DNA of 38,532 bases, from NCBI GenBank assembly GCA_022703335.1, contig JAKLDV010000009.1, positions 1 through 38,532 of the forward strand. Direction: 5' to 3'. A model generated the notes under the pieces. That model did not search any database. It saw only the letters and a list, made by a program, of their open reading frames with translations, and was not told where the DNA came from. Source of the stretch: Elusimicrobiota bacterium (GTDB lineage: Bacteria; Elusimicrobiota; Elusimicrobia; FEN-1173). Below are positions 1 to 26,332 of this stretch, one piece after another; position 1 is the stretch's first letter, and the number at the start of each line of letters is the position of its first letter. Both the position numbers and the translations under genes were made by a program.

Positions 1-393
1 TACCCGGAGCGACTGCGGCGTTACGAAGAATTTTGCCGGCTCGCCCTCGAATTGGGGGTGCCGGAGACGTCGGGCGTGTTGTCCGTCAAGCCGGACAAGT
101 GGTTCCTTTTGGGGGACTATTACAGGCACAGAAAACAGTTCGTCCGCGCGGCGGCATGCTATCTGCGGTCTTGGCGGAGGGAGTCGCGCAACAAGGAGGT
201 GCTGGTCAAGGCGGCGGAGTGCTGCCGGGAACTCGGCGATGCGGCGCGGGCGCGGCGCTATTATGAAAAGGCCCTCGCCATCAACGCTTCGGTTGCCGGA
301 TTCGGCGAGGACCCGTACGACGCGGTCATCCGGAAGGCGTTGGAATCCCTCGGGCCGGCCGCGAAATCTTCTTCCCCGCTGGTGAGGGCGTGA
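1..393 (+). CDS. C-terminal part of a B12-binding radical SAM protein (5' end outside window)
   Basis: The reading frame is open from base 1 and stops at 391-393. The first residues (YPERLRRYEEFCRLALELGV) align with the region just after the catalytic core of the five complete group-A proteins downstream, for example YPVRLDRYARFRRTCRELGL in the 13491 gene. The rest is a clear TPR-like helical repeat (LGDYYRHRKQFVRAAACYL, then a second helix pair around residues 78-98), so the tail is probably a protein-interaction module. The catalytic part lies upstream of the window, which shows that the radical-SAM array extends beyond it. The stop overlaps the GTG start of the next gene by 4 bases. Family assignment rests on paralogy only, because no cluster motif is present in this fragment. 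Confidence 0.8.
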   Translation, partial: YPERLRRYEEFCRLALELGVPETSGVLSVKPDKWFLLGDYYRHRKQFVRAAACYLRSWRRESRNKEVLVKAAECCRELGDAARARRYYEKALAINASVAGFGEDPYDAVIRKALESLGPAAKSSSPLVRA

Positions 394-1853
394 GCACGGG
401 AACCGTTTCTCCAAAGGTGGTCGACGCCCTGCGAAAACTCGATGCGGACCGTCGTTCCGCCGCGGAGCGGAGGTTCGTCCGCCCGGTTCTGGGGTTTCTG
501 GGGAAACTGCGGAGAAGATATCTGCCGGAACTGGACGAAAATATCGTACGCCTCCTCTGGGCCCGCCGGGCCTGGCGCAAGTTGGCGAATTTTCTTCTGG
601 TGGAATTGCAGGCGGAGAACATGGGGACGCGCGTGACCGGGAAACCCTATTGGCTGACCATCGACCCGACCAATTTCTGCCAATTGCGGTGCCCGTTCTG
701 CCCCACCGGCGGGGAACGCCACATCCGTTCCAAGGCGGTGCTGAAACTGGAGGATTTCAAACGGCTCATGGACGAGCTGGGGCCGACGCTCCTGCACGTG
801 GATTTCATGAACTGGGGGGAACCCCTCCTCAACAGATATATTTTCGAGATGGTCTCCTACGCGAAGAAATTCGACATCGACACGAAAATGGACACCAACC
901 TCAACGAGTTCAGCGAGGAGATGGCGGAAAAGATGGTGCGGTCCGGGTTGGACTGCGTCAGTCTTTCCATCGACGGCTTGACGCAAGAGACCTATTCCAA
1001 ATACCGCGTTCGCGGGGATTTCGACAAGGTGATGCGGAACCTGGAAACGCTCATTCGAAAGAAGAAAGAGCTGGGAAGTTCCCGGCCGTACGTCATATGG
1101 CAGTTCCTGGTGTTCAAACACAACGAACACGAAGTGGAACGGGTGAGGCAGCTGGGAAAGGAGATGGGGGTGGATGTGGTGGGGGTGACCCCGGCGTTCC
1201 TCCCGTTCCGGCCCGGCATCAAGGACGAGTGGCTGCCGCTCAAACCGGAACATCGCCATTACGATCCCGAGACGTTCCCGGACCGGCCTCCCTGGGAGTG
1301 GGAGTCGGCGCCGAAAACGGAGGCCCCGTCCCTGCCCGATCCGGCCCCGGTCGCGCCTCTGCCGGAGGAGAAACTATCGGCGGCCGCGGTTCCGCACGTG
1401 GAGGTTCTGCCCCCGCGCGGCGGGGTCCGGTCGATAATAGAACGGTTCTTCGGCCGGAAAAGGGGGGGAGCGGGAAAAGAAGAGACCCCCGTCATCAACG
1501 TGCAGGTCTACAAGGAACCCGAGAAGCGGCCCCGGTGCAACTGGCCCTGGGCGGGCATCGCCGTCAATCCGAACGGTTCCGTCTCCCCGTGCTGTTCGGT
1601 GGAGGAAGAGATCTACGATTTCGGGAACATTTTCACCGAGGGATTTTCCGGAATATGGAACGGGCCCAACTACCGTCGTGCCCGGCGCCACATCCGGGAT
1701 TATGTGAAACATCGGCAGGACGTCAAGACGCGTTCGGAACACGCGTGTGAGCGCTGTTTCAGCATCGGCCGGGCGAATTTCACGTTCCAGCCCTGGTGGC
1801 GGTTCAGTCAGTTCGATTGGTGGTGGGGGCTGCGGGAGAAAGACCCCCGTTGA
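390..1853 (+). CDS. Radical SAM protein with SPASM-type C-terminus and Pro-rich insertion
   Basis: A 487-residue protein starting at GTG, with a 4-base GTGA overlap with the previous stop. The radical-SAM cluster motif CxxxCxxC is at C97, C101 and C104, followed by a GEPLL strand (MNWGEPLL) and a typical partial TIM-barrel (SLSIDGLTQETYSKYR). The C-terminal quarter has the SPASM signature CNWPW, then NPNGSVSPCC, then a final CERC, so one or two auxiliary Fe-S clusters are expected. Between core and SPASM, about residues 285-385, lies an unusual Pro/Glu/Ala-rich stretch ending in a basic patch (RFFGRKRGG), which is absent from the other SPASM members of the array. The first 85 residues are a helical, Arg-rich extension. 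SPASM family members modify peptides, sugars or other small substrates; the substrate here is unknown. Confidence 0.88.
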   Translation: MSTGTVSPKVVDALRKLDADRRSAAERRFVRPVLGFLGKLRRRYLPELDENIVRLLWARRAWRKLANFLLVELQAENMGTRVTGKPYWLTIDPTNFCQLRCPFCPTGGERHIRSKAVLKLEDFKRLMDELGPTLLHVDFMNWGEPLLNRYIFEMVSYAKKFDIDTKMDTNLNEFSEEMAEKMVRSGLDCVSLSIDGLTQETYSKYRVRGDFDKVMRNLETLIRKKKELGSSRPYVIWQFLVFKHNEHEVERVRQLGKEMGVDVVGVTPAFLPFRPGIKDEWLPLKPEHRHYDPETFPDRPPWEWESAPKTEAPSLPDPAPVAPLPEEKLSAAAVPHVEVLPPRGGVRSIIERFFGRKRGGAGKEETPVINVQVYKEPEKRPRCNWPWAGIAVNPNGSVSPCCSVEEEIYDFGNIFTEGFSGIWNGPNYRRARRHIRDYVKHRQDVKTRSEHACERCFSIGRANFTFQPWWRFSQFDWWWGLREKDPR

Positions 1854-1874
1854 AACGGAGGGAAAGGAAAGGTC

Positions 1875-3032
1875 ATGCAGGATAACGCGTTGCTTATGAC
1901 GGACGAACACGTTCAGCGGAAATTGAACATCGCGCTGAACCGGCTCGAATTCGAACAGAAGAGGGCGGTGGTGTCGTCGACGCCGGAGGTGATCACCATC
2001 GGCGCGCACAACCACTGCAATGCCCATTGCATCTGGTGTCTGGAGGGGGACATCAGCGTCTTCGACCTCGACCGGTACAAGGAATTTTTCGAGAAGTCCC
2101 TCGGGCACGTCATTCGGAAGGCGCGCCACGTGTCTTTTGTGGGGTTCGGCGAGCTCCTCTGGCTGCCGCGGGTGGAACAGTTCCTCGACCATCTCAACGA
2201 GACCATCCCGGACGTCGTCAAGCAGTTCACCACCAACGGCACCCCGCTGCGGCCCGACAAGATCGTCGAGAAGCTTCTGGTGGGGCGGTATTCCATCCGG
2301 ATCTCCCTCCACGCCTCCACGCCGGAACTGCACGCGAAGATCACCCGCATCCGAGAGTTGGACAGGATATTGGAGAATCTGCGGTATCTGGTCAAATTGC
2401 GGGAGCATTTCCAGCGGCGAAAATATCTCCACGTGGAGCTTTTCAACGTGCTGACGAAGGACAACATCGACAACCTGCCGGACTTCGTCCGTCTGGCGGC
2501 GGAGCTCGATCTGCCGCAGGTGGTGTGCAGCTACATGACCATTTTTTCCAAGGAGCACATCGAGATGTCCCTCTTCTTCGACCAACAGCGGGCCAACGAC
2601 CGCCTGGCCGAGGCGGAAGAGGTGGCGAAAAAATTGGGCGTCATGGTCCAGCTCCCGCCGCGCTTCGGACAGGGGGGGCGCGACCGGGAGCGGCCGGCCG
2701 GCGAATGCAGCGACCCGTGGCAATATTTTTACGCCGAAACACAGGGGTCCGTCCTCCCCTGTTGCTACGCGGGCGGCCACGTGGGTTATCTCGATAAACA
2801 ATCTTTCGAGGAATTGTGGAACGGCGAGTTCTATCAAAACCTGCGGAAGGGGCTGGCCGGCGAGATGCCCGCGCACGAGTGGTGCAAGAACTGCGTGAAG
2901 TTCAAGGGGCATTACACCGTCAACAACGTGCTCTGTCATATCACCAACCGTCCTGAGACGCAAAAGATGATCGTGGAGGAAATGGAGCGGCGGGGTTTGC
3001 TCAAGCCGACGGCCGCCGGAGGAGAGGTCTAA
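1875..3032 (+). CDS. Radical SAM/SPASM protein
   Basis: A 385-residue protein with a strong ribosome-binding site (GGAGGGAAAGG) just before the ATG. The cluster motif CNAHCIWC uses C48, C52 and C55. The C-terminus carries the SPASM pattern CSDPW, QGSVLPCC, FEELWNGEF and CKNC, so auxiliary Fe-S ligands are present. It is a close paralogue of the 15471 gene: both share a 45-residue helical lead-in ending SSTP/ASTP, the block NIDNLPDF/NIDDLPDF, and a Q(R/E)KANxRLEEA helix before the SPASM region. Both copies are directly followed by a short group-C radical SAM gene, which suggests a duplicated two-gene module. The stop codon shares one base with the next start (TAATG). Reaction and substrate cannot be inferred. 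Confidence 0.88.
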   Translation: MQDNALLMTDEHVQRKLNIALNRLEFEQKRAVVSSTPEVITIGAHNHCNAHCIWCLEGDISVFDLDRYKEFFEKSLGHVIRKARHVSFVGFGELLWLPRVEQFLDHLNETIPDVVKQFTTNGTPLRPDKIVEKLLVGRYSIRISLHASTPELHAKITRIRELDRILENLRYLVKLREHFQRRKYLHVELFNVLTKDNIDNLPDFVRLAAELDLPQVVCSYMTIFSKEHIEMSLFFDQQRANDRLAEAEEVAKKLGVMVQLPPRFGQGGRDRERPAGECSDPWQYFYAETQGSVLPCCYAGGHVGYLDKQSFEELWNGEFYQNLRKGLAGEMPAHEWCKNCVKFKGHYTVNNVLCHITNRPETQKMIVEEMERRGLLKPTAAGGEV

Positions 3033-3943
3033 TGGAAACAACGCCGCCCACCAGCCTTGAACGCCCCCAACGCCAGGTCGTTTTCGCCTGGGACATGCAC
3101 TACAGCTGCAATTTCCGCTGCCCTTACTGTTTCTATACGCTGACCGGATGGCATGAGCTGGCCAAGAAGAGCACCTATAAATCCGCCGAGGAATGGAAGC
3201 GGGTTTGGCACCGCCTGTACGAAAAATACGGCAGCTGCCACATCCGTATCACCGCCGGAGAGCCGTTCACGTATCCCGGGTTCGTCGACGTCCTCGCCGC
3301 CCTTTCGCAGGAACATTGGGTGCAGGTGACCAGCAACCTGTCCCTGCGGCCCCTGCTGGAGGATTTCGTCCGGCGGGCCAACAACCGGCGGGTGGAGTTG
3401 GACTGCACCTTCCATCCCTTCGAGGCGAAATTCGAGGACTTCCTTCAGAACGTGCTTTTGCTGCGCGGTCGCGGCTTCATCGCCAACGTGTGCTATCTGG
3501 CTTACCCGCCGCAGATGGCCCGCATGGAGGAGTTCAAGAGGCGTTTCAAGGAGAACGGCATCCACATGAACATGGCGGTGTTGTGGGGCCGCTACGCCGG
3601 GAAGGAATATCCGCACGCGTACACTCCCGAAGAGAAACGTTGGATCAAAGAGGTGATCGGCTATGAGATCGGGCCGGAGACCGTCGGCCTGGAACCCATC
3701 CCCACCAAAGGGAAGATCTGCGGCGCCGGCCAGCGCTACGCGGTGATTCATGCCGACGGCCGGGCCGTCCGGTGCGGCCAGCTGGGAGAAGAGACCATCG
3801 GCAACATCCTTGACGAGAACTTCGAACTTTTTCAAACGGGCCGGCCCTGCCCGTCCGACTACTGCCGTTGCAAGGAGTTCCAGATGGCGTGGGAGGAGGA
3901 GGAGAAGCAGGCCTTGCTCCAACGAGGAGAGGTGAAGGTTTGA
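3032..3943 (+). CDS. Short radical SAM protein (group C, RCGQ subtype)
   Basis: A 303-residue protein. After VFAWDMHYS comes the cluster motif CNFRCPYC (C26, C30, C33); the SAM-contact strand reads ITAGEPFTYPGF, with Ala in place of the first Gly of the usual GGEP. The last 75 residues hold a Cys-rich module shared by all group-C proteins: C(G)AGQRYAVIHADG, VRCGQ, a GNILDENFELF block and a terminal PCPSDYCRCKE, which looks like a SPASM/twitch-type auxiliary cluster site. The start overlaps the previous stop by one base and only 25 bases separate it from the next gene, so it is operonic. The function is unknown; the conserved FxW(D/N)xH lead-in before the first Cys appears in all eight group-C members. 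Confidence 0.86.
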   Translation: METTPPTSLERPQRQVVFAWDMHYSCNFRCPYCFYTLTGWHELAKKSTYKSAEEWKRVWHRLYEKYGSCHIRITAGEPFTYPGFVDVLAALSQEHWVQVTSNLSLRPLLEDFVRRANNRRVELDCTFHPFEAKFEDFLQNVLLLRGRGFIANVCYLAYPPQMARMEEFKRRFKENGIHMNMAVLWGRYAGKEYPHAYTPEEKRWIKEVIGYEIGPETVGLEPIPTKGKICGAGQRYAVIHADGRAVRCGQLGEETIGNILDENFELFQTGRPCPSDYCRCKEFQMAWEEEEKQALLQRGEVKV

Positions 3944-3968: not shown

Positions 3969-5624
3969 ATGAAAATCGCTTTGGTGCAGTGCCCCGTCTG
4001 GGGGGTCGCTGATCCGCCGCTGGGGCCGGCCCAGTTGGCCGGCTGCCTCAAAGCGGCGGGGCACGAGGTTCGCGTGTTCGATTTGAACGTGACTCTCTGG
4101 AGGAAGGCGCCGCCCCGGCATGCCAATCTGTGGCTTTGGGAGATGTCCCGGTTCTGGAATTCTCCGGAGATCGTCGACCGTTTTTTCGCGGACAACCGCC
4201 GCCTCATCGAATCTTCGGTGCAGGCGATATTGCGTTCGGGGGCGCGGGTCGTGGCTTTCTCCGTCAACGACGGGTCCCAGTGGGCCTCCCTCAAGGTGTC
4301 CCAATGGATCAAGGAGGCAGACGCTTCCCGGGTCGTCGTCTTCGGCGGCCAATATTTTTTCAAGGGGACCGCGGCGGAGGAGATTTTAAAGGTTTCGGGA
4401 GTGGATGCGGTACTTCGGGGTCCGGCGGAAGAATCCTTGCCCGCGCTGGCGGGCGATGTGGAGACGTTCGGCCGACCGCGTCGGCGGCCGGGCCTCCTTT
4501 TCCGGGAGAACGGCTCGTTGGTCGACGGCGGCCCGGCGTCCGTCCCCGCTCTTCTGGACAAGTTGCCTTTCGCCGATTTCACCGGGTTTCCGTTGAAACT
4601 CTACGCCGAACAGGGACGGATCCCGCTGAGCGCCTCGCGGGGATGCGTTTGGGCGTGCCATTTTTGCAGCGCCGGCCGTTTCTGGCCGAACTACTCGTAC
4701 ATGAGCGGGGACCGGATCTTTGCGGAAGTGAAACATCAGAGGTCGCTTTTCCCCTCTCGCCGGCACGTGGAGTTCTACGACATCACCGCCAACGGCCGGC
4801 CGGAGGCCCTGCGCCGGTTTTCCGAGTTGATGATCGAGGAGCGGTTGGCCGGCCGTCCCGCCGGCCACACCGGGTGGAAGATCAACGCCATCGTCCGGCC
4901 GGAGATGACGCCCGACCTCCTGCGCAAAATGAAAGCCGCCGGATGCCTCTCCGTCATCTATGGGATCGAGAGCGGTTCGCCGGGCGTTTTGAAACGGATG
5001 AACAAACATTACTCCCTTCCGTTGGCCGAGCGGGTGCTGGCCGACACGCACGCGGCGGGGATTCACACCACCGCCAATTTTATGGTGGGTTTCCCCGGAG
5101 AAACGGAGGAGGATTTTCAGCGGACGCTCGATTTTTTGAAACGGAACAAGCGTTCCCTCGACCGGGCCTATCCCAGCGCCACCTTCACCAGCTTGGAGGA
5201 ACACAGTCCTCTGGCGGAGAATTACGCCGCTTTCGGGATCGAAAGCGAGAACGGCCGGCGACCGCACAACCTCTATTGGAAGATGCCGGAAGGGAACGAC
5301 TATCCGGTTCGGCTGGAGCGGTACAAAAAATTCCGGGCGCTGGCGCTCCGGCTGGGGATCGACCGCGCCAAGGGGCTGCACGGCGATCTGGCGTCCCATG
5401 CGGCGAGGGACCTCGCCGCCTATCATCGATACGCCGGCGCCCCGCTCCGCGCCCTGGCGTTGTACCGGGCCTATTTGCGGCGGGACCCCGGGAACGGACC
5501 GGTGCGGCATGAAATGGAGGAGTTGTTGATGGAAATTTCCGGCAAGAAAGCGTCCGCCGCGGTGCCGCGGGGCTGTAAGAAACGACGGACGACGTCCCGT
5601 CCCATCGCGAGGACGGTGGCATGA
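3969..5624 (+). CDS. B12-binding radical SAM protein, short form
   Basis: A 551-residue group-A protein. Residues 1-160 form the cobalamin-binding-type Rossmann domain (MKIALVQCPVWG, GHEVRVFDLN, VVVFGGQYFF). No DxHxxG motif is visible, so if cobalamin binds it is probably base-off without a His lower ligand. The radical-SAM motif CVWACHFC is at C226, C230 and C233, followed by DITANGRPE, KINAIVRPEMT and YGIESGSP, all shared with its neighbours. A TPR-like helix pair follows at about residues 475-515. Unlike the 5621, 7588 and 13491 genes, it lacks the roughly 100-residue C-terminal module and ends in a basic tail. Its stop overlaps the next ATG by 4 bases. Such enzymes often catalyse methyl transfer or ring rearrangements; the substrate is unknown. 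Confidence 0.88.
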   Translation: MKIALVQCPVWGVADPPLGPAQLAGCLKAAGHEVRVFDLNVTLWRKAPPRHANLWLWEMSRFWNSPEIVDRFFADNRRLIESSVQAILRSGARVVAFSVNDGSQWASLKVSQWIKEADASRVVVFGGQYFFKGTAAEEILKVSGVDAVLRGPAEESLPALAGDVETFGRPRRRPGLLFRENGSLVDGGPASVPALLDKLPFADFTGFPLKLYAEQGRIPLSASRGCVWACHFCSAGRFWPNYSYMSGDRIFAEVKHQRSLFPSRRHVEFYDITANGRPEALRRFSELMIEERLAGRPAGHTGWKINAIVRPEMTPDLLRKMKAAGCLSVIYGIESGSPGVLKRMNKHYSLPLAERVLADTHAAGIHTTANFMVGFPGETEEDFQRTLDFLKRNKRSLDRAYPSATFTSLEEHSPLAENYAAFGIESENGRRPHNLYWKMPEGNDYPVRLERYKKFRALALRLGIDRAKGLHGDLASHAARDLAAYHRYAGAPLRALALYRAYLRRDPGNGPVRHEMEELLMEISGKKASAAVPRGCKKRRTTSRPIARTVA

Positions 5625-7591
5625 AGGTCGCCCTGGTACAGATGCCGGTGTGGTGGACCCTCGACCCTCCTCTCGGGTTGGCCCAGATGGCGGGATGTCT
5701 GCGCGCCGCCGGCCACGAGGTCTCCGTTTTCGATTTGAACATACAGCTTTGGCGTCGACGCTCGCCGCAAAGCCATGCTCTGTGGTCGTGGGAGCAGTTC
5801 CATTTCTGGAATTACGAGGAGCGGGTGGACAAGTTCTTCAAGGAGAACCGGGCGGCGTTGGAATCGTTCCTCGAGTCGATCCTTAAGACCGACGCGCGCG
5901 TCATCGGTTTTTCGGTCAACATCGGGTCGCAGATCCCGTCCCTTCGGATGGCCGAAATGATCAAGAAGGCCGATCCGTCCCGGTTGGTGGTTTTCGGCGG
6001 ACAGTATTTTTTCCTGGGAGACAAGACCGCCGAGATGTTGAAAAACCCTCCGGTGGACGTGGTGTTTCAGGGCGCCGCCGACGAATCGTTCCCGCTTTTT
6101 CTGACGGACTACGCCCGGACCGGCCGGGCCGTCCTTCGGCCGGGCGTGGGCCTGCGGCAGGGGGAGAAGATCGTCCTGGGCGGGGCCGTTTCCCCTGTCC
6201 CCCAGCTCGACAAGGTCCCGTTCGCCGACTTCTCGCTTTTCCCCATGGACCTCTACGAGGACCAGGGGCGCATCCCGTTCGCCGCGTCGCGCGGTTGCGT
6301 CTGGGCGTGTCACTATTGCAGCACGCATCGTTTCTGGAACGGATACAGTTGCATGAGCGGCGATCGGATGTTCGCTGAGATACTCCACCATCGGCGGTTG
6401 TTCCCGCAACGGACCCACGTGGATTTTTACGACATCACCGCCAACGGCCGGCCGGAAAACCTGTTTCGGTTCGCGCAGCTGGTGCGCGACCACCACCAGC
6501 GTTCGACCCTGATGACCATCGGATGGAAGATCAACGCCATCGTCCGGCCCGAGATGACGCCCGAACTGTTGTCCGCGCTGTACGAGGCGGGGTGCATGGA
6601 GATCATCTACGGGATCGAGAGCGGTTCTCCGCGGGTTTTGAAGCGCATGAACAAGAATTACAGCCCGTCGGTGGCGGAACGCGTGTTGCGCGACACGCAC
6701 GCCGCCCGCATCACCACCACCGCGAATTTCATGCTGGGCTATCCCGGCGAGACGGAGGAGGAGTTCGGGATGACCCTGGATTTCCTTCGAGGGAACGCGG
6801 CCTCCCTCGACAAGGCTTACGCCAGCGCCACGTTCACCAGCTTGGAGGAAAACAGTTACCTCACCGAACATCGCGCGGAGTTCGGCATCCGGGACCCGGG
6901 CCTGAAGGTGGGGCATTCCCTTTATTGGGAAACGGAGGACGGCCTGAACTCCTATTTGGTGCGGATGGACCGTTACGTGCGTTTCCGCGCCCTGGCCGAA
7001 CAACTGGGATTAGAGGCCTATAAGGGGATCAACGGCGAGGTGGAGCTGGAACGGCTCTCGAAACTGGCCCAGTATTTTTTGTATACGGACAATCGTCTCC
7101 GGGCAACGGAGATGTACCTTCAATACGCCCAGAGGGCCGCCGACAGCGAGACGGCGCGGGGAGACCTTCGGGAGTTCCAGAGGGAACTTGAAGCGTTCCC
7201 GCAGGCGCTCCGGCGGTTTGAACGCTGGCGCAACGGTCATTCGGAAGTCCCCGCGTCGGCGCAGGAGACGATCTGGGAGAAGGCGAACGCCTGGTTGACC
7301 GACGACAAACCGTTTCGGCTGGAGGAGTGCCCTCAATTGGCCGAATGGCTTCGGGAGAACGGCCGCTACAAAGACTACGTCGATGACATGCTGGAGACCC
7401 ACGCGTTTTTGCAGGGATTGAAATGCCATGCTTTTCTGCGCTGGGACAAGGGGTTCCGGCTTTTTTGGGGCCGGGACGTCGTGGAGGGGCCCGGCCGGGT
7501 CGCGGGCCTCCTTGAAGAGGTTTCCGCCGCGCTGGGACAGGATGCCTCCGGCGGGAAAGTGAAGGACGAACGGATGGTGAACAGCCGATGA
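5621..7591 (+). CDS. B12-binding radical SAM protein
   Basis: A 656-residue group-A paralogue. The B12-type domain starts MKVALVQMPVWWTLDPPLGL; the cluster motif CVWACHYC sits at C226, C230 and C233, exactly as in the preceding gene. The downstream core motifs DITANGRPE, KINAIVRPEMT, YGIESGSP and FTSLEE are intact, so it should be catalytically competent. After the core comes a TPR-like helical region (LRATEMYLQYAQRA) and a C-terminal module of about 110 residues ending in a beta hairpin (RLFWGRDVV), also seen in the 7588 gene. Both ends overlap neighbours by ATGA, so translation is probably coupled along the 5621-7588-9546 series. Reaction and substrate are not inferable from sequence alone. 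Confidence 0.88.
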   Translation: MKVALVQMPVWWTLDPPLGLAQMAGCLRAAGHEVSVFDLNIQLWRRRSPQSHALWSWEQFHFWNYEERVDKFFKENRAALESFLESILKTDARVIGFSVNIGSQIPSLRMAEMIKKADPSRLVVFGGQYFFLGDKTAEMLKNPPVDVVFQGAADESFPLFLTDYARTGRAVLRPGVGLRQGEKIVLGGAVSPVPQLDKVPFADFSLFPMDLYEDQGRIPFAASRGCVWACHYCSTHRFWNGYSCMSGDRMFAEILHHRRLFPQRTHVDFYDITANGRPENLFRFAQLVRDHHQRSTLMTIGWKINAIVRPEMTPELLSALYEAGCMEIIYGIESGSPRVLKRMNKNYSPSVAERVLRDTHAARITTTANFMLGYPGETEEEFGMTLDFLRGNAASLDKAYASATFTSLEENSYLTEHRAEFGIRDPGLKVGHSLYWETEDGLNSYLVRMDRYVRFRALAEQLGLEAYKGINGEVELERLSKLAQYFLYTDNRLRATEMYLQYAQRAADSETARGDLREFQRELEAFPQALRRFERWRNGHSEVPASAQETIWEKANAWLTDDKPFRLEECPQLAEWLRENGRYKDYVDDMLETHAFLQGLKCHAFLRWDKGFRLFWGRDVVEGPGRVAGLLEEVSAALGQDASGGKVKDERMVNSR

Positions 7592-11585: not shown

Positions 11586-11601
11586 CGGCCCGGGAGATGC
11601 C

Positions 11602-15446: not shown

Positions 15447-15470
15447 GGCCGCGAAAAAATGGGGGAAACA

Positions 15471-17717: not shown

Positions 17718-18833
17718 ATGACGGACGGAACGGCGGCTTCCCAAAGCGGAGTATCGGAAAACGGCGGCGCGGCGACGATGCCGTCCGCCGGACCGAGACT
17801 GTCCGAATTTCATCGCACCATGCCCGTTTTTTACAACTGGGAGATCCATTATTCCTGCAATTACCGTTGTTCCTATTGCCCCTTCACCGTTTCCGGTTGG
17901 CATACCTTTTCCTCCAAAAACGCCTACCCGCCCCTGTCGCGTTTGGAATCGGCGTGGCGGCGGCTTTACGAGCGTTACGGCAAGGGACATATCGCGATCT
18001 CCGGCGGCGAACCGTGCACGTATCCGGAGTTCGTCCCGCTGGTGCAGACGTTGACCCGCATGCATTCGGTGGAGCTCAACACGAACCTGAGCTTCGACGA
18101 GGAGAAGTTCGCGGCCGCGGTCGACCTGAAACGCATTCGGTTGGCCGCCAGTTTCCATCCTCAATTCGCCGCGTTCGAGGATTTTTTCAAGAGGACCGTG
18201 TATTTCAAGGAGCGCGGGGTGGATATTTTCGTGAATTACGTCTCCTTTCCGGAGCAGCTGGAGGAGATGTGGCGGTATAAAAAGGAGTTCCAGGCGGCCG
18301 GCGTTCCGTTTTACATCATGCCCTTCAACGGCAAATACGAGGAACGCGTCTATCCCCAGGGCGCCACGGAACGGGAAAAGGCGTGTTACGACGCGGCCAT
18401 GAACGGGGTGGACCCGGAAACGTGGATCAATCGTCAGCGGCGCGAATGGCCCGGCCATCCGGGGCAGTATTTTCCAAACGGGGTGACGCCCAGCGAGGCC
18501 GCCCGGTTGGAACGGCAAGGCGAAAAAAGGGTGGTTCCCCCGGTGGTCGCGCCCGAACTTGCGGCCGCCGCGAAACGGGCCCCGGTCCTTTGCCTGATGG
18601 GATACCGGTACTGCAAGATCCGTCCGAACGGGGAAACGTATCGCTGCTGCGCCTGGTTGGCCGGCAACACGGACCTGCCGAAACCCATCTACCTGGGAAA
18701 CCTCTACGAGGATGAAAAATTTTCTTTATTGGAGGAGCCGGCGATGTGCGATTACACGCCCTGCCCCTGCGAACGATGCATGGTGGTGGGGGAGGAGGAC
18801 CGATGGAGACATCGCTGGGTGACGACGGAGTGA
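17718..18833 (+). CDS. Short radical SAM protein (group C, RCC subtype)
   Basis: A 371-residue protein with a good ribosome-binding site (AGAGGG, about 8 bases before the ATG). The first 35 residues are low-complexity, then PVFYNWEIHYS leads to CNYRCSYC (C47, C51, C54) and ISGGEPCTYPEF, which has an additional Cys in the GGEP strand. The C-terminal Cys module reads LCLMGYRYCKIRPNG, YRCCAW, a LGNLYEDEKFSLL block and CDYTPCPCERC. This is the most Cys-rich version in the array, with at least eight Cys in the module, so more than one auxiliary cluster is possible. An Arg/Pro-rich linker (about residues 235-285) precedes it, comparable to the linker in the 16623 protein. Operonic. Confidence 0.86.
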   Translation: MTDGTAASQSGVSENGGAATMPSAGPRLSEFHRTMPVFYNWEIHYSCNYRCSYCPFTVSGWHTFSSKNAYPPLSRLESAWRRLYERYGKGHIAISGGEPCTYPEFVPLVQTLTRMHSVELNTNLSFDEEKFAAAVDLKRIRLAASFHPQFAAFEDFFKRTVYFKERGVDIFVNYVSFPEQLEEMWRYKKEFQAAGVPFYIMPFNGKYEERVYPQGATEREKACYDAAMNGVDPETWINRQRREWPGHPGQYFPNGVTPSEAARLERQGEKRVVPPVVAPELAAAAKRAPVLCLMGYRYCKIRPNGETYRCCAWLAGNTDLPKPIYLGNLYEDEKFSLLEEPAMCDYTPCPCERCMVVGEEDRWRHRWVTTE

Positions 18834-18846: not shown

Positions 18847-19713
18847 ATGGAAAAGGCCGCCCAAAACAGACACCCCCAGGTGCGGTTCACCTGGAACATC
18901 CATTGGAGCTGCAATTATCGCTGCAGCTACTGTTTCTTTGAGACGCACTGGGAGGAATATGGGAAACGGAACGTCTATAAATCCGTCGATGAATGGATGG
19001 GTTATTGGGAAAGGGCCGCCGAGCTCTACGGCCGCTGTTTCATCACCATCAACGGCGGGGAGCCGTTCACGTATCCCGGATTCGTCGACCTCATCGCCCG
19101 GCTCTCGCGGGTCCATTGGCCCATCAACATCACCACCAACACCTCGCTGCATCTCAAAGAGTTCGTGAAAAAAGTGGACCCCGAACGGGTTTCGTTGTCC
19201 GTCAGCTATCACCCCGAATACCACCGGGTGGACGATTTCCTGGAAAAGGTTTTTTTCCTGCGGCAGTCCGGTTTTGTGGGGGGGTGCGTCAATTTTGTCG
19301 CCCACCCGAACCACATCGGAACCCTGCCGGCCCTGTTGGAAAAATTCGTCGGCATCGGGGAGAGCCTGAAAGTGAACCCGTTCATCGGGGAGCACGCCGG
19401 CCGGCGGTACCCCGACGGGTACACCCCGGAACAGAAGGAGATTTTGGGGATGCGCGATTCGTGGATGGACGACAAGCGGCACAAGGGGATGCTGTGCCGG
19501 GCCGGGAACCTCTCCGGACTGCTCTTGCCCAACGGCAACGTGGCCCGCTGCGGACAGATCGGCGACCGGCACATCGTCGGCAGTTTTTTCGATCCGAAGT
19601 TCCGTCTCTTGCCGGAACCGCTTCCTTGCGACGTGGAGTTTTGCCCGTGCGACGAGTGGAAAGTGGTGCCGGACGAAAAAGAGCCGGAAAACGCGGGGGC
19701 GTGGCTTCCCTGA
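18847..19713 (+). CDS. Short radical SAM protein (group C, RCGQ subtype)
   Basis: A 288-residue protein from ATG 18847; a TTG at 18841 is in frame, but the GAGGGG at 18832-18837 is better spaced for the ATG. VRFTWNIHWS leads to CNYRCSYC (C22, C26, C29) and then INGGEPFTYPGF. The C-terminal module reads LCRAGNLSGLLLPNG, ARCGQIGDRH, a GSFFDPKFRLL block and CDVEFCPCDEW. It is most similar to the 3032 protein, sharing the KSxxEW helix after the core start, the FTYPGF strand and the RCGQ signature. There is no linker insertion, so it represents the minimal group-C architecture. Function unknown. Confidence 0.86.
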   Translation: MEKAAQNRHPQVRFTWNIHWSCNYRCSYCFFETHWEEYGKRNVYKSVDEWMGYWERAAELYGRCFITINGGEPFTYPGFVDLIARLSRVHWPINITTNTSLHLKEFVKKVDPERVSLSVSYHPEYHRVDDFLEKVFFLRQSGFVGGCVNFVAHPNHIGTLPALLEKFVGIGESLKVNPFIGEHAGRRYPDGYTPEQKEILGMRDSWMDDKRHKGMLCRAGNLSGLLLPNGNVARCGQIGDRHIVGSFFDPKFRLLPEPLPCDVEFCPCDEWKVVPDEKEPENAGAWLP

Positions 19714-19744: not shown

Positions 19745-20635
19745 ATGCGCTCGCGGTTGAGTTTTACGTGGGACCTGCTCTATCACTGCAACTACCGGTG
19801 TTCCTATTGCTGGTGGGACCCGCATTGGCTCAAGTTCGCGGAGAAATACGCCGGATACCCGTCAGCCCGACAGTGGATCCGGGCTTGGGAGAACGTCCGA
19901 CGTCTTTCCGGAGAGGCCGACATCTCCGTTTTGGGAGGGGAACCCCTGATGTACGCGGGGTTTTCCGACATGGTGCGCGCCCTGACGACGGCGCAGGGGC
20001 ATCATGTCTGCATCACGACGAATTTATACACCGGCTCCCGGCAGCTGGCGGATTTCGTGAAGGGGATTTCGCCAGAAAAGCTCGATCTGTCGTGCAGCTA
20101 CCATCCGCATTTCGCCTCGCTGACAGAGGTCCTCGAAAAAGTGAAGGCCCTGAAGGAACTGGGTTTCCATGTTCCCGTCTATCTGATCTCCTTCCCCCCG
20201 TTCCTGGAGGAGTTGCCGTCGTACGAGGAGACGGTGCGGCGGGCCGGCGGGGATTTCCGATTGCGTATTTTCTGCGGCGAGTACAACGGGAAGACGTATC
20301 CTCGGGATTACACGGACCCGGAGCGGGCCCTCCTTTCAAAGATGCTCGGCAATCCGGTGCAGGTGGACTACCAAATCGATCAGAAGACGACGTTGGGTGA
20401 ACGGTGCTATTCCGGGGCGGTCTACGGCAACGTGAAGCCGACCGGCGACGTGTACCGTTGCGGACAATCCGCTATCGACGGAAAACCCATGGGCAACATC
20501 TTCGACGAGGATTTCCACATGTTGCCGGGGCCGACGCCGTGCCCGTTCACGCACTGTTCCTGTCAGGAATACGAATACGTGGCCAAGGAATACGAACGGA
20601 AACGCGCCCTCCGGGCCGGGATGTCGGTCGCATGA
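19745..20635 (+). CDS. Short radical SAM protein (group C, RCGQ subtype)
   Basis: A 296-residue protein; AAAGGAGGG directly precedes the ATG. LSFTWDLLYH leads to CNYRCSYC (C15, C19, C22), then a Trp-rich loop (WWDPHW) and VLGGEPLMYAGF. The C-terminal module reads RCYSGAVYGNVKPTG, YRCGQ, MGNIFDEDFHMLP and CPFTHCSCQE, so the Cys pattern is complete. The protein has a very short N-terminus, with the motif starting at residue 15. It sits between the similar 18847 gene and a SPASM gene. Reaction unknown. Confidence 0.86.
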   Translation: MRSRLSFTWDLLYHCNYRCSYCWWDPHWLKFAEKYAGYPSARQWIRAWENVRRLSGEADISVLGGEPLMYAGFSDMVRALTTAQGHHVCITTNLYTGSRQLADFVKGISPEKLDLSCSYHPHFASLTEVLEKVKALKELGFHVPVYLISFPPFLEELPSYEETVRRAGGDFRLRIFCGEYNGKTYPRDYTDPERALLSKMLGNPVQVDYQIDQKTTLGERCYSGAVYGNVKPTGDVYRCGQSAIDGKPMGNIFDEDFHMLPGPTPCPFTHCSCQEYEYVAKEYERKRALRAGMSVA

Positions 20636-20671: not shown

Positions 20672-21811
20672 ATGAGTGATCAAGAGAGGGCGGCCCACGT
20701 CCGGGCGTGGTTCGAGGGGGAGCCGGCGGGTCCGTTTACCATTCAATTGAACCCCACGATGGCCTGCAATCTGAATTGTCTTTTTTGCCGTCGACAAAAC
20801 CAGCTGGAAGCCTTCTATCGGGATCATCGGGAACTCCCGGACCAGAAATACATGGAAATCGTGGAGGAGGCCGTGGCGCTGGGCGTGAAAGCCATCAACA
20901 TCAAGGGGGGCGGCGAACCGCTGATCCGGCGGGCCCTGATGCGGGAGCTCGTTCCGCTGATCCGCCGGAACAAGGTGCACGGATCGCTCATCACCAACGG
21001 GACCCTGTTGGACGAACCGTTGGCGGAGTTGATGGTGCGGTGGGAGTGGAACGAGCTTTCGGTGAGTTTGGACTCCCCGGAGGCGGCCACGCACGATTAT
21101 TTGCGGGACAAGCCGGGGACGTTCGACCGGTTGATGGCCGGACAGAGGTGGATCAACGAATTTAAACGCCGGCATAAGGCCGCTTTGCCGCACGTCAAGT
21201 GGCACTCCGTGTTGACGAATCGGAACCATCGCCGGGTGGCCGATATGCTCCGCCTGGCGGCGGAGAACGGGGCGGCGGAGGTGGAGTTCGACTCGCTGGA
21301 TTTGAGCGAACCGTCGTCGGCCGTTTTGAAACTGGACGAAGGGGATGTAAGGGAGTTTCAGGAGGGGCTTCCTCCGGTCCTGGCTCTCGCCGAGCGTTTG
21401 GGGATACGCCACAACCTCCAGAATTTCGATCGCCGCGATTACGCGGTGCGGGGAGGGGCCAACGGCGTCAAGACCGGCGATAAAACATCGCCCGCCCCCG
21501 GCGGTTCGCCGTATGAGCGGATCCCCTGTTTCTTCCCCTGGTTCCACTGCGACATCACTCCGGACGGCAGCCTCGTGCCGTGTTGCTACGGGGAAGGATA
21601 CGAGTCCCGGGAAAACCTCCATCGGATGTCTTTCCGGGAGGCCTGGCGGGGACGGGGGATGAAAGAATACCGCGACAGCATGCGGGACGGGACCATGAAG
21701 CCGTTTTGTCGGAATTGCACCGCCTGTTACCGGGACCAGAACGACCGCATCCGGGAAGCTCTCCGGTGCGGCCCGGCGGGCGATGCTCCGCGCCGGGAGA
21801 AAGTTTTTTGA
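20672..21811 (+). CDS. Radical SAM/SPASM protein
   Basis: A 379-residue protein. The cluster motif CNLNCLFC is at C32, C36 and C39, followed by NIKGGGEPLIRRAL and a classic core (LSVSLDSPEAATHDYLR). The SPASM region has CFFPW, TPDGSLVPCCYG, FREAWRG and a final CRNCTAC. Its overall layout is closer to general SPASM oxidoreductases than to the 1875/15471 pair. The Shine-Dalgarno sequence is weak (CGGAAC), so translation may depend on upstream genes. A 22-base inverted repeat spans its stop codon and the gap to the next gene. Confidence 0.87.
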   Translation: MSDQERAAHVRAWFEGEPAGPFTIQLNPTMACNLNCLFCRRQNQLEAFYRDHRELPDQKYMEIVEEAVALGVKAINIKGGGEPLIRRALMRELVPLIRRNKVHGSLITNGTLLDEPLAELMVRWEWNELSVSLDSPEAATHDYLRDKPGTFDRLMAGQRWINEFKRRHKAALPHVKWHSVLTNRNHRRVADMLRLAAENGAAEVEFDSLDLSEPSSAVLKLDEGDVREFQEGLPPVLALAERLGIRHNLQNFDRRDYAVRGGANGVKTGDKTSPAPGGSPYERIPCFFPWFHCDITPDGSLVPCCYGEGYESRENLHRMSFREAWRGRGMKEYRDSMRDGTMKPFCRNCTACYRDQNDRIREALRCGPAGDAPRREKVF

Positions 21812-21843: not shown

Positions 21844-22785
21844 ATGCCGGGAATGTCGCCGAACCGTCCTATGGATTACTTCTGGGTCGTCATGACCCAA
21901 TGTGATTGCCGGTGCCCCTACTGTATCTACGGTCTGTACCCGTTGGACCGGAGGAAGGTGGGCTATTTTTATACCGCGGAAGAATGGCTGGCCGGGTGGG
22001 AGCGGATGTATAAAAAATACGGCGAAGGCCGCATCGTCCTTACCGGCGGGGAACCGACCCTTTATCCCGGTTTTACGGACCTGGCGGTCCAGCTGAGCCG
22101 ATGGTACCAGATCAACATCGACACGAATTTCCAACTTCCCTCCGCGGAGCTGGAGCTCCTTCTGAAAAGACTGTCTCCCCGGCGGGTGGATTTCAGCACC
22201 AGTTTCCACCCGTTCATGGCCAAGACGGACGAATTCATTGCCAAGATCCATCTGCTCAAACGAAACGGGTTCAACTACCTGTGCCGTCTCGTGGCCTTTC
22301 CGCCGCTGGTCGAAAAAATCCCAGCGTGGCGGAAGACGTTCGGGGACGAAGATATCATTCTTTTCGTCAACCCGTTTTCGGGCGAGTGGAATGGCAGGAA
22401 ATATCCCGAATCCTACACGCCGGCGGAAAAGGAGATCATCTTCGGCCAGAAGAACAGCCGGGAGAGCGCCCGCATCCATCCCGCCGACAAGGAATTCGTC
22501 CGGCAAATGTTGAACATGGAATCTCCTCGCGGTCGACCATGCCGTACCGGCAGCGAACACGTGCGGGTGGAGGACAACGGATGGGTCTATCGCTGCGTTT
22601 CCTACGCCGCCATGGAACGGGAACCGCTGGGGAATTTCATCAAGGACGACATCGTTTTGTGGGATCGGCCGCGCGTCTGCGAGGCGGACGCGTGCGAATG
22701 GGAATACCGCTATCTCGTCGACGAAACGGACCGATTCAAGAGCGATAAGGTCCTGCGGGACGCCACGACCCGCGGGGGCGTGTGA
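21844..22785 (+). CDS. Short radical SAM protein (group C, altered C-terminal Cys set)
   Basis: A 313-residue protein. The cluster site is CDCRCPYC (C20, C24, C27, with an extra Cys at 22), followed by LTGGEPTLYPGF. The C-terminal module begins normally (PCRTGSEHVRVEDNG, YRC) but ends VCEADACEWEY: the CxC pair found in most group-C proteins is replaced by a lone Cys, so the auxiliary cluster probably has one ligand fewer or another ligand type. The residue before the first Cys is Gln instead of the usual Ser/His, and the lead-in is FWVVMTQ rather than FxWxxH, making this the most divergent short member. Its stop overlaps or abuts the next start. Confidence 0.84.
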   Translation: MPGMSPNRPMDYFWVVMTQCDCRCPYCIYGLYPLDRRKVGYFYTAEEWLAGWERMYKKYGEGRIVLTGGEPTLYPGFTDLAVQLSRWYQINIDTNFQLPSAELELLLKRLSPRRVDFSTSFHPFMAKTDEFIAKIHLLKRNGFNYLCRLVAFPPLVEKIPAWRKTFGDEDIILFVNPFSGEWNGRKYPESYTPAEKEIIFGQKNSRESARIHPADKEFVRQMLNMESPRGRPCRTGSEHVRVEDNGWVYRCVSYAAMEREPLGNFIKDDIVLWDRPRVCEADACEWEYRYLVDETDRFKSDKVLRDATTRGGV

Positions 22786-22787
22786 CC

Positions 22788-23633
22788 ATGGGACAGGGAC
22801 CCGAAAACCGAACCACGTTCGGCTGGGACCTGACCTACGTGTGCAATTATCGCTGCCCGTATTGCACCGTCTGGGACCAACCCACGCCGATCAAAGACAT
22901 GGACGTGGCCGCCTGGCGGAAGATATGGGACCGGTTCTACGAACTTTACGGGGAATGTTACATCTACATGTCCGGCGGGGAGCCGTCCGCCCATCGCTGT
23001 TTTTTCGAGCTGGTGGACATGCTGTCGAAAAAACACATCGTGGACATATGCACCAACCTGTCGTGGGACGTCGGACGGCTGGCGGACGCCATCCCTCCCG
23101 GCCGTCTGCGCATCGCGGCCACCTTTCATCCGTCGCAGGTCCTTTTTCGGGAATATGTGGAGAAGGCGGTGCGCATCAAGGAGTATCTTCCGTTGAGGCC
23201 GGAGGGGCCCACGGTCTATTATGTCGCCTATCCGGCGCAGATCCCGGAGATGGAGGAACATGCCCGGCTTTTCCGGGAGAGGGGGCTCGCGCTGGTCCCC
23301 CTGCCGTACGTGGGGCATGAGAACGCCCTGGGGAATTCCGCGGACGAAAAAGAAAAAATCCGGGCCATCTCCCCCAACAAGGGAGACCCCCTGAAGAAAT
23401 TGGAGTTCCAGCTGAAAGAGCTGTCCCCGAAGGGCCGGTTATGCCGCGCCGGTCAGAAATACGCCATGATCCGCGGCGACGGATCCGTGGACCGGTGCAG
23501 CCAGTATCGGGCGCATCAGATGGGGGACATCCGGGACGCCAACTTTCAACTGTGGGATTCACCCCGTCCCTGCACGCTGGCGTGGTGTCCCTACGAGTCG
23601 CAATGGCTCGTCCGAGAGGAGACCCGTTCGTGA
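22788..23633 (+). CDS. Short radical SAM protein (group C, altered C-terminal Cys set)
   Basis: A 281-residue protein from ATG 22788, which has GGGGG nine bases upstream. A GTG at 22782 would give a GTGA overlap with the previous stop, as at several other junctions, and two more residues. TTFGWDLTYV leads to CNYRCPYC (C19, C23, C26), then MSGGEPSAHRCF. The C-terminal module reads LCRAGQKYAMIRGDG, DRCSQ, MGDIRDANFQLW and CTLAWCPYE: the last Cys of the CxC pair is Tyr. With the preceding gene it forms a pair of variants with a reduced Cys set. The stop overlaps the next GTG by 4 bases. Confidence 0.85.
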   Translation: MGQGPENRTTFGWDLTYVCNYRCPYCTVWDQPTPIKDMDVAAWRKIWDRFYELYGECYIYMSGGEPSAHRCFFELVDMLSKKHIVDICTNLSWDVGRLADAIPPGRLRIAATFHPSQVLFREYVEKAVRIKEYLPLRPEGPTVYYVAYPAQIPEMEEHARLFRERGLALVPLPYVGHENALGNSADEKEKIRAISPNKGDPLKKLEFQLKELSPKGRLCRAGQKYAMIRGDGSVDRCSQYRAHQMGDIRDANFQLWDSPRPCTLAWCPYESQWLVREETRS

Positions 23634-24640
23634 AGGGAAGACGGAGATTTTGGGGCGGCCGTTTTTTGTTGGTGGCGGCCGGAGGGCTTCTCCCCTTGCT
23701 TGTGGCGGGAATCGCCGAGTGGAATTTGCGGCGCGACGGGTTCCAGTTTGAGCCCTGGCGGTATTATCGTCGGTTCGGAGCCAATTTCGAGGCGGAGGAG
23801 ATCGAGTCCTACGCCAAAGACCCCGACCTCTTCTGGCGGTTCCGGCCGTCGCAAACCCTCCGGACCTGGTGGGTGGAGGAGGCGACGATAAACCGATACG
23901 GCTTCAGGGGAGAAGATTTTCCGGAAAAGAAAGAACCCGGGGTTTTGCGCGTGTTGTGCGCGGGCGATTCCGGCACTTTCGGCTGGGGGGTCAGAGACAA
24001 CGAGTCGTTTTCCGTCTATTTGCAGGAGTTCCTGGGGCGGCGCTGGGGGGAAGGGAAAGTCCAGGTCGTCAACGCGGGGGTTCCCGGTTATTCTTCTCAT
24101 CAGGGGCTCCATGTCCTGAAGAAATGGGGGCCCCGGCTTCGTCCGGACATCGTTATTTTTTCGTTCGGCAGGAACGATCATAATCCCACGGCCTGGCTGA
24201 CCGACCGCCAAAGGAAAAAGATCCCGCGCCCGCTGGTGGAACTGCAGAACGTGTTGCTGCGGACCCGGCTGTATCAGTGGTTCTACATGCGCACCACGCT
24301 CTATATGTACATCGAACACCGGGAAAAATTTCTGGGGAGCCGGCGGGAGACGGTGCGGGTAACGTTGTCGGAATATGAGGAAAATCTGCGTCGGGCCGCG
24401 GCGCTTTGTCGCGACGGAGGGGCTGACATCGTTTTTGTTCCACGGAGTCAGCAGATGGCCTATATCGACGTGATGAAGCGGGTGGCAAAGGAGACCGGGT
24501 CCCGCTATGTGGATTTGGAAAAATTTTCCTCCGATCGAGGGATCAAGGACTACTCGTTGGGGGAACATCCGGGCTGGCCCGCCTATAAACGCCTGGCGGA
24601 GATCGTCGGCGAGGAAGTTGCGCGCTTAAAGACTCCGTGA
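23630..24640 (+). CDS. Membrane-anchored SGNH/GDSL-type hydrolase or acyltransferase
   Basis: A 336-residue protein. The GTG at 23630 is chosen because it overlaps the previous stop and starts a basic n-region (KGRRR) followed by one hydrophobic segment (residues 11-29), so the protein is probably anchored in or exported across the inner membrane. SGNH blocks are visible: block I CAGDSGTFGWG with nucleophile S114, block II NAGVPGYSS, block III FSFGRND with N182, and a C-terminal Asp/His region (D307, H313). Family members hydrolyse or transfer acyl groups on lipids or glycans. It is the only gene in the array that is not a radical SAM protein, which hints that the pathway product is acylated, deacylated or lipid/glycan-linked; that link is inference. 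Confidence 0.8.
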   Translation: MKGRRRFWGGRFLLVAAGGLLPLLVAGIAEWNLRRDGFQFEPWRYYRRFGANFEAEEIESYAKDPDLFWRFRPSQTLRTWWVEEATINRYGFRGEDFPEKKEPGVLRVLCAGDSGTFGWGVRDNESFSVYLQEFLGRRWGEGKVQVVNAGVPGYSSHQGLHVLKKWGPRLRPDIVIFSFGRNDHNPTAWLTDRQRKKIPRPLVELQNVLLRTRLYQWFYMRTTLYMYIEHREKFLGSRRETVRVTLSEYEENLRRAAALCRDGGADIVFVPRSQQMAYIDVMKRVAKETGSRYVDLEKFSSDRGIKDYSLGEHPGWPAYKRLAEIVGEEVARLKTP

Positions 24641-24652
24641 CGGAGCCCCCGC

Positions 24653-26332
24653 ATGAAACCTGAGATGGCGGAAGAACTCATAAAGAAACTGTATCGCGTG
24701 GGGCCCGCGGGCGTGTTGGTCGACGGAAAGCGGGTCTTGTATTTTTCCCCGGCCGGTCTTCCGGCCGGCGCGCCGCCGGCCGACGTGATCTTCATCCCCG
24801 GCGAGTCGTCCCGGCACCGCTCATTCCCCGACATCAAAAAAATCGCGACGGCCCAGACCATCGTCGTTGGCCGTCCGTCCCATATCAGCCGCTTTCCCTG
24901 CAATCTGTTGTCGGTGGAAGCGGAAAAGAAAGGGGCCGTGCTGGGAATGCCGATCGTTTCCCGAAAGAATCCGGCGGCGCCGGGAGAAACGGATTTTCTG
25001 GTCACGGTGGACGGGCTGCGTCTCGCTTACGTGGCCTCCCTTTCGGGAGGATCGTCCGCTTTTGGGGAGGCGGACGTCGTTTTTTCGTCCGCTCCCGAAA
25101 AGGAGGTTTCTTTTCAACAGGCGATTTCCGCCATGAAACGAATGAGGGTTCGGTTCTTTGTTCCGCTGGGCGATTCCCGCCTGCCGGACGCGTTCGTTCA
25201 AAGACTGGAGGCGGAGAAGATAGGGGTATTGCAGCTGCCGGGGCTGAACGGCAAAAACCGGCCGGCGGGGATATCGAAAGAAAAAACAAGCCGTCCGGCG
25301 GGCCCCTCGACGACAGCGGTCGGGACATTGTATCGTCCGAAAACGGCGGCCGATCGGATCACGTTCACCTGGAACATACACCACAGCTGCAATTACCGGT
25401 GCCCCTATTGTTTCATGGCGACCGACCCCATCCACACGTTTCGAAAGAACAGCTATCCCGCGCTGGACCAGCTTGTGGGGGTGTGGGAAAGGATGTATCG
25501 CCTTTACGGGAGCTGTGTCCTGAAAATTTCCGGCGGGGAGCCGTTCATCTATCCGCACTTCGTCGAACTGTTGGAGGGACTTTCCGCCCATCACTTCCTG
25601 GATTTCTCCTCCAACCTCTCTTGGGACGTCCGCGGGCTGATCGGCCGGTTGCCTCCGCGCTCCGTCCACATCGATCCGAGTTTTCATCCGGGTTTTTATA
25701 AGGACATTGAGGAATTCGCTGAAAAATGTCTCCTCCTTAAAAAACAGGATTCCCTCGGGTCCGTGCATATCGTCGCCTACCCCCCGTTTCTTCAAAAGAT
25801 GAGGGGATACAAGGAGGTCCTCCAAAGGAAAGGACTGGACATCGTTTTCTTACCGTTCCGGGGGCGCTATCGGGACAAACAATATCCCGAATCCTACTCG
25901 CCGGCCGAAAAAGAATTGCTCCGGGATCTGGCCCGGTCGAACCGGGACGAAACGAAAAACCCGCCGGCCGCCTCTGCCCCGCCCGCGGCCGCCAAGCCGT
26001 TCATTGAGAAGGTCAACGAACAATATTTCTCCTGGTTCGTGGAGAACAAGAACGCGCCGGGGCCGCAGGGGGGGCGTCTCTGTTGGCAGGGGGCGCGTTA
26101 TGGGAAGATCTATTCTAATTTGGATGTTTACCGGTGCTGCACCCGGGAGGATTCGCCGGAACTGTACGTGGGGAATTTGTTGGACCCCGAGTTCCGTCTC
26201 TTGGACGGTCCTCGTCCCTGCCCAATGACGGACTGCGCCTGCTGGAAGGCGATGTTGTGCGGGCAGGAGAACACATGGAAAACGCTTTGGAACACGGAGA
26301 ATTTTCCCATGCCGGCGCGCCTGAAGACATGA
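24653..26332 (+). CDS. Fusion: degenerate metallo-beta-lactamase-like domain + group-C radical SAM
   Basis: A 559-residue protein. Residues 1-200 follow the order of a UlaG-like metallo-beta-lactamase fold: [58 protein letters not shown] and a final [10 protein letters not shown]. The metal motif HxHxDH is reduced to GESSRH and other His ligands are missing, so the domain should not bind two metals or hydrolyse. Residues 230-559 are a complete group-C radical SAM protein: [16 protein letters not shown] (C246, C250, C253), [12 protein letters not shown], then [29 protein letters not shown] and WKTLW. The MBL-like call rests on motif order read by eye. It is the last radical SAM gene in the array; its stop overlaps the next small ORF by ATGA. 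Confidence 0.8.

Follow-up and report, generated by a model that had tools for sequence, protein, structure and literature searches.

A conserved radical SAM gene array in Elusimicrobiota and its possible partnership with a glycosyltransferase and export module

The window analyzed in this study is the whole of contig C258 (38532 bases) of an Elusimicrobiota genome, G000, which is 2.66 Mb in size, divided into 268 contigs and 96% complete; the other G-numbers below denote genomes of relatives, and C-numbers denote contigs. At positions 1–26332, the window carries 20 closely packed genes, all on the + strand: 19 are related to radical S-adenosylmethionine (SAM) enzymes and one encodes a GDSL/SGNH hydrolase. 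Gene trees and gene order show that the core is ancient: it has at least eight components, which are held in similar order in two Elusimicrobiota classes. Tentatively, we favour a two-module system that would build and export a surface or secreted glycan or peptide–glycan conjugate, with the array as its tailoring half.

In the array, the Pfam radical SAM domain (PF04055) with the CX3CX2C motif was detected in 16 of the 19 radical-SAM-related genes. The three genes lacking it are gene 1, a fragment truncated by the contig boundary, and the B12-type paralogues at 9546–11585 and 11602–13494, which have no CX3CX2C motif. Thus, the 19 radical SAM genes of the preliminary description are all present as related open reading frames (ORFs), but not all of them as enzymes with the domain. 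The gene Sh4 (16623) scores at the PF04055 cut-off, with 28.4 bits by hmmscan and 29.6 bits in a six-frame search, for a threshold of 29.5. As first described, the genes share one strand, the SGNH hydrolase is the only other enzyme gene, and there are three paralogous types: B12-binding (six genes plus the fragment), SPASM (four genes) and a short type with a C-terminal Cys cluster (eight genes, one of which is N-terminally extended). Intergenic distances of −4 to +36 bases agree with the gaps of 0–40 bases and 4-base overlaps initially described, except for one 31-base overlap that depends on the SGNH start: it is present if this gene begins at the ATG at 23603, and a GTG start at 23630 changes it to −4. 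With 78 PF04055 matches across the 2.66-Mb genome and an assumed 2,500 genes, the probability of such a run arising by chance is negligible (~4e-24 for 17 of 19 genes). The first good terminator candidate past the array is a strong hairpin-like element at 28698–28717 (+), identified by consensus match only. This is the terminator first noted at 28699. There is a further match at 25053 along with many weak ones, all within genes, so that a single transcript for the array is a supposition.

The start of the array almost certainly lies on contig C192, where a B12-type radical SAM gene is truncated by the contig end and is oriented to run into the window. Its 454 amino acids (C192:3–1364(−)) and the 130 amino acids encoded at window positions 1–393 match a contiguous 575-amino-acid orthologue from G005 through the junction, with about 4 bases missing. 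No overlap was seen between the ends of C192 and C258, and we strongly infer that the two contigs join with an assembly gap of about 4 nucleotides. By this join, the array extends past the window edge, as had been proposed. Upstream of the joined gene, B12A, C192 encodes a 675-amino-acid right-handed β-helix protein (PF13229, 3e-44) and rA, a 382-amino-acid radical SAM/SPASM protein; with the C192 part included, the array spans ~30.9 kb and 22 genes. The β-helix gene is the sole PF13229 locus in G000, and its product has no signal peptide apparent by eye. It adjoins B12A in both G000 and G005, and most other arrays have a version of it, differing in length, inside them or close by. β-Helix proteins of 701 and 754 amino acids from G020 (C45, G020x 2157) and G046 (C33, G046x 48151), respectively, possess an N-terminal domain matching a 203-amino-acid signal-peptidase-like protein of C192.

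Members of the short-type profile occur in 15 of 98 relatives, many of them arrayed, and the Sh2 profile at E ≤ 1e-60 has matches in 24 of a phylum-wide sample of 295 genomes. Fifteen named loci matched in an Sh2 alignment search; 13 of these are labelled Elusimicrobia and two just 'bacterium', which is in line with the phylum first suggested. Outside Elusimicrobiota, tests are limited, since a scan of 84,980 genomes relied on two peptide patterns that distant relatives would escape. In trees of the B12, SPASM and short types, recent duplication does not account for most window genes: SP1, SP2, SP3, Sh1, Sh2 and B12A each fall in a supported clade with orthologues from 5–11 genomes. B12B alone is expanded in G000, with four intact and two degenerate copies vs. 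one or two elsewhere, and the short-type copy number varies widely among genomes. The order rA–β-helix–B12A–SP1/SP2–Sh1–B12B–SP3–Sh2 is present, with local swaps and fusions, in G005, G037, G061, G086, G088 and G097, and G020 and G046 have the same core order, more rearranged. In a second class (G111, G117, G119, G141 and G156), the run SP2–SP1–SP3–B12B–Sh2 is retained, and Sh1–B12A–rA is located nearby or at a separate locus. Homologues scattered singly would have refuted the operon-like multi-enzyme array originally described; those in the relatives are syntenic instead.

Upstream of the array, C192 carries a companion module encoding a GT2 glycosyltransferase, a P-loop protein, a GT1 glycosyltransferase, PqqD, a type I phosphodiesterase, a sulfatase-fold protein, Wzm-like and Wzt-like proteins, the 203-amino-acid signal-peptidase-like protein and another GT1 (TIGR03087, 4e-63). 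The module genes share the array orientation save one; a gene for a 531-amino-acid protein at the end lies on the other strand. The exporter components match Wzt/TagH (1e-49) and Wzm (1e-11). Paired ABC2_membrane permease and ATPase genes by glycosyltransferases, typical of Wzm/Wzt export loci, were found on C192 and in G156 and G046 and, together with synteny, suggest a role in export. At least 14 further genomes have members of the companion module inside or adjacent to their arrays, and in G119 (C21) Wzm–Wzt–Sh1–B12A–rA–GT2–P-loop form one run. The P-loop protein is present in 21 of 24 array genomes vs. 24 of 271 others (Fisher 8e-17, uncorrected for phylogeny); it is putatively HPr-kinase-like, and another module protein is putatively nucleotidyltransferase-like. 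A conserved protein of 50–59 amino acids with a single membrane span lies beside Wzm/Wzt in G156 (L111 11748–11912(−)), G117 (L109 11795–11974(−)) and G119 (L115 10670–10822(+)).

The PqqD protein of C192 matches TbiB1, the recognition element (RRE) of a lasso peptide system, at 2.5e-10, and PqqD-like RREs were found on C192 and on the array contigs of seven of the 20 genomes examined. A motif-blind cross-genome search for small ORFs brought up short basic peptides with the motif YxKPx[LI]xxHG, some of which match lasso leader models under cut-off. With a profile built from six peptides, four of the 12 matches beyond the training set are no further than 10 kb from the P-loop gene (~1e-6 by chance); these peptides are near the P-loop gene in G287, G063, G047 and G069, none of which was used to build the model. 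In G000 itself, C236 carries a peptide gene (L002:19675–19800(−)), GT2 and two B12-type radical SAM enzyme genes in a row, and C252 carries a B12-type radical SAM enzyme gene, a peptide gene (L054:2830–2937(+)) and GT2. A ribosome-binding-like site, AAGGAG, lies just 5' of the C252 peptide gene. Because their B12-type enzymes share only ~25% identity with those of the array, the C236 and C252 loci represent a parallel to the array, not a direct link.

The B12-type proteins of the array have an N-terminal B12-binding domain followed by a radical SAM domain, the arrangement of class B B12-dependent radical SAM methyltransferases. The B12-binding domain (PF02310) is above the cut-off in three B12B copies and below it in one. 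The folds nearest to an AlphaFold model of B12B (pLDDT 82.9) are TsrM, CysS, OxsB and TokK. Carbon methylation by B12B is likely but not certain on the basis of this model, because AprD4 and OxsB share the fold and perform other chemistry. The nearest curated models for the B12 type are C-methyltransferases of ribosomally synthesized and post-translationally modified peptides (RiPPs), TIGR03975 (1e-37) and ApyD (3e-37), both under their cut-offs; for TIGR03975, the best score is 129.7 bits vs. a curated cut-off of 281.85. The Sh2 model (pLDDT 73.3) is nearest to BlsE, MoaA, SkfB, PqqE and anSME with modest TM-scores, and these predicted similarities point to an enzyme class, not to a substrate. 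For the short type, the best curated model is NF038073 of the STM4011 family (6e-24), with 84.8 bits vs. a cut-off of 200. Viperin-type antiviral enzymes (pVip) were also considered and rejected: the best score was 45.6 bits vs. the NF038283 cut-off of 180, and PADLOC matches were weak, over ~100 residues.

These features could be combined as follows. The second module would supply the glycosyltransferases, the Wzm/Wzt-like ATP-binding cassette (ABC) exporter, the HPr-kinase-like P-loop protein and the putative nucleotidyltransferase and, in one class, additionally a PqqD chaperone resembling lasso B1 and short peptides with a leader. The substrate may be a glycan linked to a lipid, a short peptide of ribosomal origin that PqqD presents, or both, and would be assembled in the cytoplasm. 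The B12-type enzymes would add methyl groups onto unactivated carbons, or perform related B12 radical chemistry, and the SPASM and short twitch-like enzymes might catalyze other hydrogen-abstraction steps, such as dehydrogenation, epimerization, deoxygenation or cross-linking. The presumably unsecreted β-helix protein and the tetratricopeptide repeat (TPR) tails may act as a scaffold or substrate holder, and the product would exit through the ABC exporter, so that the two modules would yield one product. This reading is supported by the core synteny across two classes, in which each core position has its own orthologue clade. A more specific form, in which a phylum-specific assembly line of ~18 radical SAM enzymes on an unsecreted β-helix scaffold, with two pseudoenzyme partners, makes a new class of surface-exported, radical-modified peptide–glycan conjugate, is doubtful at present.

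Several observations weigh against an exported glycan or conjugate as the product of both modules. Co-location is no proof of a single pathway, and the substrate is putative. The Fisher p value for the P-loop protein ignores shared ancestry, which inflates significance; 24 genomes have this protein but no array, and in G005 about 350 kb of the same contig separate the syntenic companion module from the array. Only motifs underlie the labels HPr-kinase-like and nucleotidyltransferase-like, and a search of the PDB gave them no support. Within the window, there is no PqqD, and a precursor peptide was looked for inside the array and none was found. Furthermore, G117 has an array and no PF05402 match genome-wide, and in G111 and G119 the PF05402 match is not near the array; the peptide part is thus not universal.

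The second candidate is a secreted RiPP, for which the radical SAM enzymes would modify lasso-leader-like peptides brought by PqqD, and the glycan genes would be neighbours or provide minor tailoring. The RiPP C-methyltransferase models nearest to the B12 type, the resemblance of PqqD to TbiB1 and the position of the peptides next to B12-type enzymes on C236 and C252 are consistent with such a product. However, the array holds neither precursor nor PqqD, the array of G117 occurs without PqqD, the exporter is of the polysaccharide type, and the peptides reach the lasso leader models only below cut-off. Since glycosyltransferase and export genes are common to both classes, and PqqD and the peptides are found in one class, we rank the exported glycan or conjugate first and regard a pure peptide product as rather unlikely.

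The array could also be a loose set of paralogues with separate roles, kept together through duplication. The six B12B copies, two of them degenerate, and the widely variable short-type copy number fit this idea, but the core consists of old, distinct orthologue groups in similar order across classes, which makes it improbable. Membrane-lipid remodelling, as in the tetraether, hopanoid and ladderane pathways, has little probability: the B12-type proteins match HpnJ, HpnR and ladderane models far under cut-off and GDGT-MAS is among the weak sequence and structural matches, yet RiPP and RimO/MiaB-type models score equally or higher, and no lipid-biosynthesis genes were found in or beside the arrays examined. 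It is just as hard to favour the β-helix protein itself as the substrate, with its repeated rungs modified. Its gene is located by B12A, recurs in most arrays with variable length, and is unique of its kind in G000. However, the protein is as small as 212–248 amino acids in G088, G061, G046, G020 and G086, shows no obvious ladder of modified residues, and in G020 and G046 a second, longer β-helix protein begins with the domain matching the signal-peptidase-like protein. Sulfatase maturation is unlikely despite the anSME-like fold of Sh2 and the sulfatase-fold protein of C192, as many enzymes would serve one target.

A pathway to a nitrogenase-paralogue or tetrapyrrole-type cofactor is barely credible. 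The preliminary description had mentioned large radical SAM suites near divergent nitrogenase-like genes in groundwater members of this phylum, some array-bearing relatives also hold many nitrogenase-like genes, and SPASM members weakly match NirJ and AhbC/D models. No match to PF00148 was found in G000 or in at least four other array carriers (G005, G050, G086 and G088), so the supposed link is not supported for the array. G020, G037, G046 and G097 carry their nitrogenase-like genes away from the array, on other contigs, where the neighbouring genes reach 51 bits at best against the array family profiles vs. hundreds for true members. Because PF00148 is absent or located on other contigs without close relatives of the array enzymes, the system mentioned there is, judged by sequence, different from the array, which is now set apart from the radical SAM genes linked to nitrogenases in this phylum. 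About 15 PF00148 matches, many in D/K-like pairs, lie within ~57 kb of G037 (C16:46776–104119, L126–L129), with smaller sets on G020:C64, G097:C9 and G046:C98. The array-free G003, of the same family, has NifD/K-like genes on C276 and C4 (PF00148 E ~1e-118).

The system appears to be undescribed, although it is made of known enzyme families; a literature search found nothing on the array and, in the library searched, no system with such a combination, and we know of none. RRE-dependent radical SAM RiPP clusters (PqqD/PqqE, sactipeptide/ranthipeptide and TIGR03975) are similar in their B12-type and SPASM enzymes, PqqD-like RRE and short peptides, which are here in companion loci. The system described here differs from them in its ~18 intact radical SAM genes, the order of which is conserved, its β-helix protein, and its polysaccharide-type exporter and glycosyltransferases; moreover, the array proper contains neither a precursor gene nor PqqD. 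Lasso systems, with a PqqD-like B1 protein and a YxxPxL leader, are alike in the RRE near TbiB1 and the leader-like motif YxKPx[LI]. Unlike in these systems, no asparagine-synthetase-like cyclase or B2 protease was recognized by Pfam among the array-adjacent companion genes scanned, a search that was not genome-wide, and radical SAM enzymes are present instead. ABC-exporter loci for surface polysaccharides (Wzm/Wzt, PEP-CTERM/XrtA-type) share the Wzm/Wzt-like pair, GT1 (TIGR03087) and GT2, and relatives have SGNH, DegT and carbamoyltransferase genes in common with them. To our knowledge, no polysaccharide export locus includes a comparable set of radical SAM genes or a β-helix protein that is not secreted. 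The SPASM proteins match the ScmE/ScmF models of the SynChlorMet cassette far under cut-off (75 vs. 400 bits); this cassette also pairs HprK-like and PqqD-like proteins, but has just two radical SAM genes. The STM4011 family, the best curated model for the short type, is matched under its cut-off (85 vs. 200 bits). There is a smaller chance that the array represents a new class rather than a variant multi-enzyme tailoring cluster.

As far as we know, most natural pathways make do with a handful of radical SAM enzymes or fewer. Here, about eight core types keep their order in two classes of a phylum that is mostly uncultured, and the set has expanded to ~18 intact enzymes in G000; conservation to this degree implies that the product, whatever its chemistry, is valuable. 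Through the genes for the peptide, RRE and glycan exporter, the companion module offers a testable way in, and searches with the core profiles could locate the system elsewhere.

Individual genes, all on the + strand, were assigned by Pfam and trees unless stated otherwise. Gene 1 (1–393) is the C-terminal TPR part of B12A, the radical SAM domain of which is encoded on C192. The core gene SP1 (390–1853) encodes a radical SAM/SPASM protein (PF04055, 5.8e-19; PF13186, 3.8e-14) with orthologues in at least seven genomes, and SP2 (1875–3032), of the same type and also core, is fused to B12A in some other genomes (G061 and G088). The core short gene Sh1 (3032–3943) is followed by B12B copies 1 (3969–5624), 2 (5621–7591) and 3 (7588–9549), the last being the copy with a B12-binding domain under the Pfam cut-off.

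The two degenerate B12B paralogues come next. No radical SAM domain was found in either by Pfam scan, and they were recognized as B12-type homologues by the B12B profile, with 241 bits (9546–11585) and 143 bits (11602–13494). The former is an intact 679-codon ORF whose B12-binding match is under the Pfam cut-off, and the latter is an intact 630-codon ORF without any Pfam match. Both have long intact frames, coding codon usage and long tree branches. The long branches combined with intact frames suggest selection at the protein level, so that both are putative pseudoenzymes. No close counterparts of this adjacent pair (9546–13494) were recognized in the relatives.

B12B copy 4 (13491–15446), the core copy and the one used for the AlphaFold model, is nearest to the G005 copies. 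It precedes the core SPASM gene SP3 (15459–16619), the short genes Sh4 (16623–17705) and Sh5 (17718–18833), and Sh2 (18847–19713), the most conserved core gene, for which an AlphaFold model also exists. These are followed by Sh6 (19745–20635), the SPASM gene SP4 (20672–21811), Sh7 (21844–22785) and Sh3 (22788–23633), which has a possible GTG start at 22782. The GDSL/SGNH hydrolase gene (23603–24640; PF13472, 1.8e-16), with its possible GTG start at 23630, has counterparts found repeatedly in or near the arrays of relatives. The last gene, Sh8 (24653–26332), has an N-terminal extension of ~230 amino acids (24653–25340), which is missing from the G020 orthologue; it gave no sequence match in the PDB and is reminiscent, by eye, of a degenerate metallo-β-lactamase fold.

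Beyond the array, a 63-amino-acid Cys-rich ORF at 26517, which we take to resemble a common small family, was set aside as a part of the system, being located past the array. Judging from translations inspected by eye, it is followed, up to 37389, by ComM-like, LysM-type, DprA-like, TopA-like and XerC-like genes, and the region 26517–37389 apparently consists of ordinary housekeeping genes 3' of the array.

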